A stretch of 64,000 nt of DNA from an uncultured Bacteroidales bacterium (GTDB lineage Bacteria > Bacteroidota > Bacteroidia > Bacteroidales > Bacteroidaceae). The notes below the pieces were generated by a model. It did not search any database and was not told the DNA's origin. It worked only from the letters and a program-made list of their open reading frames with translations. Every line of letters starts with the position of its first letter. Position 1 is the first letter of the stretch. Of this stretch, positions 2 to 1,252 are shown piece after piece. The position numbers were made by a program, and so were the translations under genes. The DNA lies in NCBI GenBank assembly GCA_902786925.1, contig CADAEK010000018.1:1-64000 (forward strand), written 5' to 3'.

Positions 2-1252
2 CAATTGTCAACTGTCAATTATCAATTTGTCAAGGGCGATTTGGCAGACAAGAATCTGATTGACAAATTGTTTGCAGAGCATAAGTTCGACGTGGTGGTG
101 AATCTGGCTGCTCAGGCTGGTGTACGTTATTCGATTACGAATCCCGATGCTTATATTCAGAGCAACATGATTGGCTTCTATAACATACTGGAAGCTTGTC
201 GTCACAGCCGTGACGGAATTGATAATGGACAATTGACAATTGACAATTATCAGGGGGTGCAACATTTAGTGTATGCCAGCAGCAGCTCTGTGTATGGTGG
301 CAACAAGAAGGTGCCATTCTCGACGGATGACCGTGTGGATAATCCTGTGTCATTGTATGCGGCTACGAAGAAGAGCAATGAGCTGTTTGCCCATTGCTAC
401 AGTAAGTTGTATGATATACCAACCAACAAACTGCTGAAAGGTGAAACCATCCAGATATTCAACTACGGAAACTGCCGTCGTGACTTTACCTTTGTGGATG
501 ACATCGTAGAAGGCATCGTTCGTGTGATGCAGGGTGCACCAGCCTCTCCTAAATCCTCCCCTAAAGGGAAGGACTTGGGTGTGCATACAGCAGATCCGAT
601 GCTGTATGGAAGACTGAAGGAACTGGCAGAGGAAATGCGTAAGAATCCTACAGAGGCGGAAAAAGTGCTTTGGGAAGCGCTTAGGGCTAATGGCTTGGGT
701 GTGAAGTTCCGTCAGCAGCATATTATCGAAGACTTCATTGTGGATTTCTATTGCAATGAGTATAAAGTCACTGTCGAAGTGGATGGTGGCTATCATAATG
801 ATGTGGAGCAGATGAAGTCAGATGAAGAACGTACAGCTCGACTGAACGAACTCGGATATACTGAACTACGTTTCACCAACGAAGAAGTCCTCCATGACCT
901 CGACAGAGTCTTAAAAACAATCAAAACCTTCTGTAGTGGAACCCCCTCTCCTTCAGGAGAGGGTTGGGGAGAGGCTCCATACGCAATATATAACATCGGA
1001 GGTGGTCAGCCGGAGAACCTTTTGGACTTCGTGAACATCCTGCAAGAGGAACTGGTTCGTGCCGGTGTTCTTCCTGCAGACTTCGACTTCGAGGCGCACA
1101 AGCAATTGGTTCCTATGCAGCCTGGGGATGTGCCCACGACGTATGCGGATGCCACTGCTCTGGAGCGCGACTTCGGTTTCACGCCTAAGATTACATTGAG
1201 AGAGGGACTGAGAGCTTTTGCTCAATGGTATAAGGCTTATTATTGCAAATAG
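2..1252 (+). CDS. NAD-dependent nucleotide-sugar epimerase (UDP-glucuronate 4-epimerase type), 5'-truncated by window edge, carrying an internal DUF559 domain
   Basis: The frame is open from the left edge, so the N-terminal NAD-binding Rossmann glycine motif lies outside the window. Counting residues from the first in-frame start-like codon at 5, family motifs are VVNLAAQAGVRYS (31-43), the catalytic Tyr-Lys pair Y118/K122 and the C-terminal block YNIGGGQPENLLDF (329-342), typical of extended SDR epimerases acting on UDP-glucuronate. The gene is abnormal in four places. Codons up to about 35 and about 212-256 are translated 7-bp repeat arrays. The stretch that should follow LYDIP, with the conserved [14 protein letters not shown] substrate-binding segment (about 23 residues), is absent, so DIP runs directly into TNKL near 420. 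About 146 residues, including a complete DUF559 nuclease domain, sit between MQGAP and PYAIYN. All changes keep the frame. Loss of the substrate segment suggests an inactive epimerase, but this is inference. Confidence 0.8.
   Translation, partial: QLSTVNYQFVKGDLADKNLIDKLFAEHKFDVVVNLAAQAGVRYSITNPDAYIQSNMIGFYNILEACRHSRDGIDNGQLTIDNYQGVQHLVYASSSSVYGGNKKVPFSTDDRVDNPVSLYAATKKSNELFAHCYSKLYDIPTNKLLKGETIQIFNYGNCRRDFTFVDDIVEGIVRVMQGAPASPKSSPKGKDLGVHTADPMLYGRLKELAEEMRKNPTEAEKVLWEALRANGLGVKFRQQHIIEDFIVDFYCNEYKVTVEVDGGYHNDVEQMKSDEERTARLNELGYTELRFTNEEVLHDLDRVLKTIKTFCSGTPSPSGEGWGEAPYAIYNIGGGQPENLLDFVNILQEELVRAGVLPADFDFEAHKQLVPMQPGDVPTTYADATALERDFGFTPKITLREGLRAFAQWYKAYYCK
540..976 (+). mobile_element. DUF559 (Vsr-like PD-(D/E)XK nuclease fold) segment inserted in frame, bordered by hairpins
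   Basis: Residues about 199-305 of the surrounding frame read as a complete DUF559 domain: helical start (LAEEMRKNPTEAEKVLWEAL), then a core with D247 (IVDFYC) and E258-V-D260-GGYH, matching the acidic active-site pattern of Vsr-like endonucleases. It is flanked by G/C-rich palindromic DNA at 546-580 and 944-963 (CCCTCTCC-TTCA-GGAGAGGG), the same kind of hairpin found alone between genes elsewhere in this window. DUF559 proteins are usually free-standing of about 110-130 residues; here it is translated as an internal domain of the epimerase. No separate start signal is obvious, though an ATG at 599 could start a free-standing version. Confidence 0.7.
944..963. repeat. REP-like hairpin at 3' border of DUF559 segment
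   Basis: Perfect 8-bp inverted repeat CCCTCTCC/GGAGAGGG with a TTCA loop, followed by GTTGGGGAGAGG. Similar C-rich/G-rich hairpins lie at 546-580, 12013-12060, 16290-16340 and 51737-51802. Confidence 0.75.

Follow-up and report, generated by a model that had tools for sequence, protein, structure and literature searches.

A DUF559 nuclease unit with REP-like hairpin ends inside a Bacteroidales epimerase gene: a probable small mobile element

The 64,000-nucleotide stretch of DNA analysed here (the window, positions 1 to 64,000 of contig CADAEK010000018.1 from an uncultured Bacteroidales bacterium) begins within a sugar-nucleotide epimerase gene that carries, in its own reading frame, a nuclease domain of the DUF559 family, and this raises the question of how an endonuclease bordered by hairpins came to lie inside such an enzyme. 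With a probability of about 0.7, we propose that the insert is a small mobile element, that is, a DUF559 endonuclease gene between REP-like hairpins, with hairpin-only copies as its derivatives. The mobility of the hairpin-DUF559 unit is inferred from comparisons of sequences, and such an element is apparently undescribed.

The host open reading frame (2–1252, forward strand) encodes by its Pfam matches a NAD-dependent epimerase and lacks its 5′ end, the contig starting inside the gene. These matches are PF16363 (4.7e-36), PF01370 (9.4e-33) and PF04480 (7.1e-32), the last one corresponding to DUF559 and covering residues 205–311, with the epimerase fold N-terminal of it. The original prediction of an in-frame DUF559 nuclease with hairpin ends inside an epimerase was thus confirmed (PF04480 E-value 7e-32), and alignments with an empty copy on contig C48 of the same genome (G000) and with the filled epimerase L031 placed the unit at 541–976 on the forward strand: a hairpin end, a DUF559 frame without a stop of its own and a second hairpin end, together 436 bp that remain open throughout between the two ends. 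On the same strand, the left outer end (541–549, AGCCTCTCC) forms an inverted repeat with its counterpart on the right (968–976, GGAGAGGCT), and inside them lie the left hairpin (554–573, TCCTCCCC-TAAA-GGGAAGGA, with one mismatch) and the right hairpin (944–963, CCCTCTCC-TTCA-GGAGAGGG). Between the hairpins are found an in-frame GTG (581–583), which may be a separate start for the nuclease, and the DUF559 (PF04480) domain (614–934), assigned by Pfam, fold and profile to the Vsr/I-Bth0305I-like nucleases. The right border is uncertain by 2 nt, the final CT being common to the empty allele. This element is the only DUF559 match in the window's genome.

The hairpins were detected by a mismatch-tolerant scan; a first inverted-repeat scan of the window gave nothing at its settings, and Rfam returned no match at gathering scores in 7 hairpin loci. 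The same tolerant scan found solitary REP-like hairpins in the style of the element's at 12026–12045 and at 16302–16321, the latter with a similar one at G000:C1 17226 (L237). Of the three solitary hairpins initially proposed, these two are good and the one near 51737 is weak.

The ends, the nuclease and spread at the same site

DUF559 matches, weak ones included, were present in 25 of 45 genomes of the window's genus, in 108 of 301 of the family and in 170 of 296 of the phylum. The 114 distinct copies that we compared are a non-random set made of top-scoring loci, long-frame picks and relatives of the window's insert; one of them, L023, a Dna2-like helicase (named by eye) with a C-terminal DUF559 and a different architecture, was left out of the trees and included in the counts of hairpins, flanks and placement. 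A pyrimidine-rich hairpin lay within 200 bp upstream of 96/114 copies (10.0 in shuffles) and downstream of 103/113 (6.4 in shuffles). Hairpins bordered 88 of 113 copies on both sides and 22 on one side, against 6–9% per side in shuffles and against 14/107 and 11/109 in control windows placed 1000–1200 bp away. DUF559 genes devoid of flanking hairpins, which would have spoken against the original prediction, were therefore rare among the Bacteroidota copies tested, with only 3/113 having none on either side.

Within a copy, the two flanks also match each other in inverted orientation, with a mean score of 21.4 versus 9.5 for flanks taken from different copies (the best of 2000 permuted means was 11.1), and the inverted match exceeded the direct one in 91 of 113 copies, with 2 ties. 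In 34 free copies whose ends were clear, the similarity of the ends rose with the identity of the nuclease (Mantel 0.32, p 2e-4, with orthologous loci dropped and 501 of 561 pairs kept). The ends therefore co-vary with each other and with the nuclease. Some Bacteroidota copies of the wider phylum have long direct repeats and not inverted ones; among them, the free DUF559 genes L172, L174, L161, L169 and L178 present direct repeats scoring 89–110, a second architecture in other Bacteroidota.

Outside this phylum, 12 genes from plasmid-collection records were compared. Matched long repeats surrounded DUF559 in Pseudanabaena, two Deinococcus, Sphingomonas and Picosynechococcus (in the last as a direct repeat), and the flanks in Synechocystis showed weak C-rich matches. 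No matched flanks were found in 6/12, namely E. coli (L194, presumably ycjD), Geobacillus, Photobacterium, Methylobacterium, Azospirillum and Sinorhizobium, so the DUF559 family is not always mobile in this way.

The DUF559 domain was modelled well (pLDDT 85), and Foldseek retrieved 3hrl first (3.3e-6), the catalytic domain of I-Bth0305I next (3r3p, 6e-5) and E. coli Vsr at 0.03, while the profile search gave 3hrl at 1.7e-28 and 3r3p at 6.9e-7. Across 101 aligned copies, 13 columns never vary, and they include the acidic residues put forward at the outset as the active site, D247, E258 and D260 in a numbering that fits a count from the TTG start (D57, E68 and D70 in alignment A1). The nuclease is under purifying selection: the median omega was 0.073 across 40 pairs that share at least 60% identity and are not independent, and 0.062 for 13 internal pairs, with 0.232 as the highest value.

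Comparison of inserts with their hosts gave the relative ages. In the host tree, which came with a tool warning about long branches (including L031), the 11 filled epimerases did not form one clade (5 changes, AU p 1e-61), and their inserts grouped together in a quick tree (11 rows, SH-aLRT 94). The inserts of the window and L031 are 95.5% identical in DNA with a pS of 0.105, versus 78–79% and 0.74–0.78 for the host sides; for L036 and L037 the insert pS is 0.029 versus 0.21–0.29 for the host, and for the LeuB pair L115–L117 it is 0.046 versus 0.351. The Fisher p values, approximate because they use our own estimates of synonymous site numbers, are 2e-18, 1e-4 and 7e-9, respectively. In these three pairs, the insert is much younger than the host at the same site, which points indirectly to a recent spread of the insert into the same site of empty alleles. 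In the remaining 53 of the 55 epimerase pairs, no gap of this kind separated insert from host; among 8 pairs from other hosts, LeuB had the clear gap, the Gmk pair L126–L132 a partial one (0.314 versus 0.606) and 6 none, the host being in some of them less diverged than the insert.

The DegT aminotransferases present two sites in several states. At the first, the complete unit follows VHKAP and precedes YDSN in L042, no insert is present in L053 or L044, and L143 has, by eye, a pair of hairpin-like ends alone; the second is filled in L143, L053 and L044 and empty in L042. Filled, empty and hairpin-only states thus exist for this host. In view of the spread into the same site and of the kinship to I-Bth0305I, the nuclease could be a pure homing endonuclease gene, the hairpins being then remains of REP landing sites, and REPs might be preferred cut sites. 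We consider this explanation unlikely, since the two ends of each copy match and track the nuclease, as expected of parts of a unit, and since the hairpin pair of L143 occupies a site that is filled by the complete unit in another genome.

Dispersed hairpins across genomes

REP hairpins are abundant bacterial repeats, and the mobile-element reading takes the hairpins that lie alone as derivatives of the unit. We counted the pattern CCYYTCCN{2,6}GGARRGG in the 301 genomes of the family with the reversed pattern as control, calling a DUF559 match strong at E ≤ 1e-15 and a genome hairpin-rich at 10 or more. Before correction, the median was 15 hairpins in the 91 genomes with a strong match versus 1 in the 210 without, and at least 10 hairpins were present in 51/91 versus 15/210, leaving 40/91 genomes with DUF559 and fewer than 10; the control pattern had means of 1.4 and 0.9. 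When two hairpins were subtracted for each DUF559 copy, to account for the copies' own ends, the medians became 12 versus 1 and the hairpin-rich genomes 47/91 versus 15/210 (odds ratio 13.9). The effect was kept when genomes were permuted within genera, uncorrected and corrected (p 5e-5 both). Outside the family, in a phylum sample of 293 genomes, 39/125 versus 7/168 were hairpin-rich uncorrected and 25/125 versus 7/168 corrected, with a corrected median of 0. The highest count in the two samples, 157 hairpins, belongs to G597 of the phylum sample, which has a single DUF559 match.

The enrichment of hairpins that had been proposed at the start is consequently found across genomes, but fails within the window's genus: corrected medians with versus without DUF559 were 45.5 versus 1 in genus g6 and 0 versus 2 in the window's own genus, where there is no association. 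The window's genome has 4 pattern matches, one of which is the element; since it is poor in hairpins and holds one DUF559 copy, the association is not visible from the window alone. Pyrimidine-first hairpins exceeded purine-first ones by 32 to 7 in G132 and 16 to 3 in G098, both 400-kb samples of genomes already known to be hairpin-rich, and no such excess was seen in the window's genome (6 to 8) or in the window itself (5 to 4).

Bacteria already have an enzyme for such repeats, and the architecture of REPs plus a gene is that of REPtrons, as described in PMC6006769. One may thus ask whether ordinary REP elements are moved here by a RAYT (Y1 HUH) transposase, DUF559 being a passenger between two of them. 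Matches to PF01797 (RAYT-type) exist in 100/301 family genomes, and in the 210 genomes without strong DUF559 they go with hairpins: 11/68 are hairpin-rich with PF01797 versus 4/142 without (p 9e-4), and 11 of the 15 hairpin-rich genomes of this group have a RAYT-type match, so that RAYT, or a factor linked with it, may be at work there. Where DUF559 is present, by contrast, RAYT adds little (median 15.5 in 32 genomes with PF01797 versus 13 in 59 without), and RAYT as sole driver is unsupported in these genomes. The window's genome has no PF01797 match, the ends co-vary with the nuclease, and the 5′ GTAG tag carried by RAYT-linked REPs was found within 8 nt of only 2/199 hairpins (9/199 on the 3′ side, with CGTC left out of the count). 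We judge the passenger explanation quite improbable.

Host proteins and the empty site

By place, the 114 copies divide into 52 free-standing, 39 internal, 17 N-terminal and 6 C-terminal ones. The N-terminal "fusions" are open frames in which the host may start inside; L041, counted with them, is a broken epimerase, and the open frame of L048 spans a stretch of N. DUF559, expected to be normally free-standing, is so only in part, 37/150 and 44/149 of the matches listed being in frames of at least 280 codons. Pfam confirmed 23 host families joined to DUF559 in open frames, their gene names being our reading of the Pfam matches. In 15 of them the unit is internal: GalE-type epimerase, DegT aminotransferase, FnlB-like epimerase, FemAB, N6/N4 methylase, LeuRS, MetH, acetyl-CoA synthetase (two inserts in one protein), MiaB-like, SpoIID-like, UvrA, RecD2-like helicase, Type ISP, HsdR and HsdM. 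Five have it at the N-terminal side (guanylate kinase, LeuB, LeuC, IspF and SDR) and three at the C-terminal side (IspG, phosphoglycerate mutase and a CobB/CobQ-type amidotransferase). The Pfam scan gave no host family at its cut-off for L140 and L158, and the host of L151 is RNase-H-like by reading alone.

In a quick nuclease tree of 113 rows, with few columns and many weak forks, 27 rows formed one group (SH-aLRT 86) that resides inside proteins of seven families (GalE, DegT, FnlB, FemAB, LeuRS, Acs and UvrA, with the broken L041 as one row); many of these rows had been found through their similarity to the window insert, and 13 other internal copies fall outside the group. This suggests that the stop-less form itself moves between genes. 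In L116, FnlB-like and GalE frames overlap and each has its own in-frame DUF559, and in L117 the LeuC and LeuB genes, about 2.5 kb apart, also carry one each; such filled neighbours suggest local hopping. Hosts of the restriction-modification type (HsdR, HsdM, Type ISP and N6/N4 methylases) recur in L155, L156, L162, L164, L176 and L049. By eye, peptides of the hairpin type without DUF559 are also found in frame elsewhere in the host proteins of L047, L146, L045 and L046.

The empty site was studied in the epimerase. An N-terminal epimerase query (E ≤ 1e-60) had a match in 28 of the 45 genomes of the genus and none in 17, and the 28 loci (L060–L087) are all uninterrupted, as in ...QGAPEKKQGEDGLPLPPYAVYNIG, which goes against the possibility, raised with the prediction, that all close relatives share the fused protein. 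All 28 hold at the insert site a 12-residue loop (EKKQGEDGLPLP or similar), and a filled gene reads, for example, ...QHAPE[insert]VPYKVYNIG. The sequence around the filled sites indicates that the unit took the place of this variable loop, which would lie at the protein surface. The window's own genome, the one carrier examined in this respect, has an uninterrupted host copy beside the filled one: an empty epimerase at the end of contig C48 that is 97% identical in amino acids over 238 host columns. Relative to it, about 35 nt are lost at the window junction, and no target-site duplication was seen there. The insertion is thus in frame as predicted but not clean, about 35 nt of the empty allele being replaced, and of the announced 146 extra residues, some 145 do lie between MQGAP and PYAIYN while the net gain is only about 133.

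These data also bear on whether the nuclease is an old useful domain that serves the epimerase or another host and is inherited along with it. Insert and host are about equally diverged in most epimerase pairs, the LeuRS inserts compared share one common site, and the purifying selection would fit. Such an old fusion is nevertheless very improbable in view of the 23 unrelated host families, the absence of the insert from 28/28 retrieved genus epimerases, the inserted hosts that do not form one clade and the three pairs in which the insert is much younger than its host. Moreover, since members of both main host clades have the loop, the empty genes would not be explained simply by loss of an insert inherited from an ancestor.

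The window epimerase has other peculiarities. Positions 205–260 and 1–35 belong to a second repeat family of the AATTGACAATTATCAATTG type, which is also in frame in this protein (GIDNGQLTIDNYQG) and missing from L031; the epimerases L034, L073 and L077 have extra residues where the window has this family. The protein lacks 23 residues at about 421–422 that the other 29 rows of alignment A2 keep, and a different stretch is absent from the sister epimerase on C48. AlphaFold modelled the fused L031 epimerase poorly (pLDDT 58). Both epimerase contig ends are near-identical over about 200 bases, so a misassembly of the duplicated gene is possible, but an assembly artefact or a metagenome-bin chimera as the source of the insert, which these missing residues might suggest, is barely credible given the same fusion in records titled as strains and not as "MAG" (L036 HUN156 and L037 MN60) and the filled hosts of other kinds in the strain-titled L054 Nubsella and L056 Pedobacter BS3.

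Proposed mechanism, known systems and meaning

In the mobile-element reading that we prefer, the element would be one endonuclease gene of the DUF559 family (Vsr/EDxHD-type), enclosed by two REP-like C-rich hairpins that are usually inverted, and the dispersed hairpin-only copies would be its non-autonomous derivatives. The nuclease would cut sites that it recognises, either hairpin ends of its own type or its target in the empty allele, and repair of the break would copy the unit into the cut. Most copies sit in the space between genes or at the end of a gene. One lineage would have lost its stop and often its start, so that translation would continue through its ends, giving linker peptides, and the nuclease would persist without splicing as an extra domain of a host protein that presumably still works. 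The two readings offered by the original prediction, a REP-like unit with its own nuclease following a RAYT-like logic and a homing-like nuclease, are both supported and may be one thing. Three known ideas meet in the unit, namely ends of the REP type, a nuclease of the homing type and residence in frame, and each part has a known counterpart.

Like REP/RAYT systems, REPtrons and REPINs, the element has a nuclease-type gene flanked by hairpins, with dispersed copies that track its presence; hairpins beside the gene, with further copies elsewhere in the genome, were found for the element family, the window's own genome being hairpin-poor. It differs from them by its enzyme, a PD-(D/E)XK/Vsr-fold nuclease (PF04480) and not a Y1 HUH transposase (PF01797), and by DUF559 copies that enter reading frames in full. 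PMC3733652 describes REP families without a known dedicated transposase, the CGTC REPs. With the EDxHD/Vsr-like I-Bth0305I, the element has in common the catalytic fold, the acidic residues and the same-site spread between alleles; unlike it, the element has hairpin ends, many target genes and neither intron nor intein. Regarded as a homing endonuclease, it agrees on the points compared, and cleavage of the empty allele would be predicted.

Rickettsia palindromic elements are also palindromic mobile DNA in frame in unrelated protein genes; they are about 150 bp long and treated as MITEs in PMC10969869, whereas the element has 436 bp and a conserved nuclease. Inteins are likewise selfish in-frame insertions with a homing-type nuclease in conserved genes, but the element is expected to stay in the protein, and Pfam, run on the window protein and on 26 fusion proteins, listed no splicing domain at the E-values used. 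The element therefore departs in a defining feature from the RAYT system, from inteins and from Rickettsia palindromic elements. E. coli Vsr, the E. coli DUF559 gene and Caulobacter VsrA belong to the same nuclease family or fold but are free-standing; VsrA has been linked to DNA damage with a predicted role in mismatch repair (PMC12907096), and PMC9403480, where it treats inteins, classes a cyanobacterial DUF559 gene as an EDxHD homing endonuclease. In a search of open-access literature, a corpus that mostly leaves out subscription papers and preprints, the titles and abstract openings listed for DUF559 link it neither to REP repeats nor to in-frame mobility.

A bolder reading, towards which we lean with somewhat more belief than doubt, is that of a new class of mobile element, in which a Vsr-fold DUF559 nuclease would take the role of an HUH transposase in mobilising REP-like hairpins, with copies bracketed by repeats in records from four phyla (outside Bacteroidota, one or two records each), one lineage turned into a permanent in-frame domain, and jumping between genes combined with homing between alleles without splicing. 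If true, these findings would tie a second class of enzyme to REP-like repeats and give DUF559 a likely role, and the origin of REP-like repeats would become testable. An in-frame nuclease in LeuRS, MetH or UvrA would then be selfish DNA tolerated in essential proteins without splicing, with a bearing on how domain insertions arise, and the element would account for odd "fusion proteins" of gut and rumen genomes.
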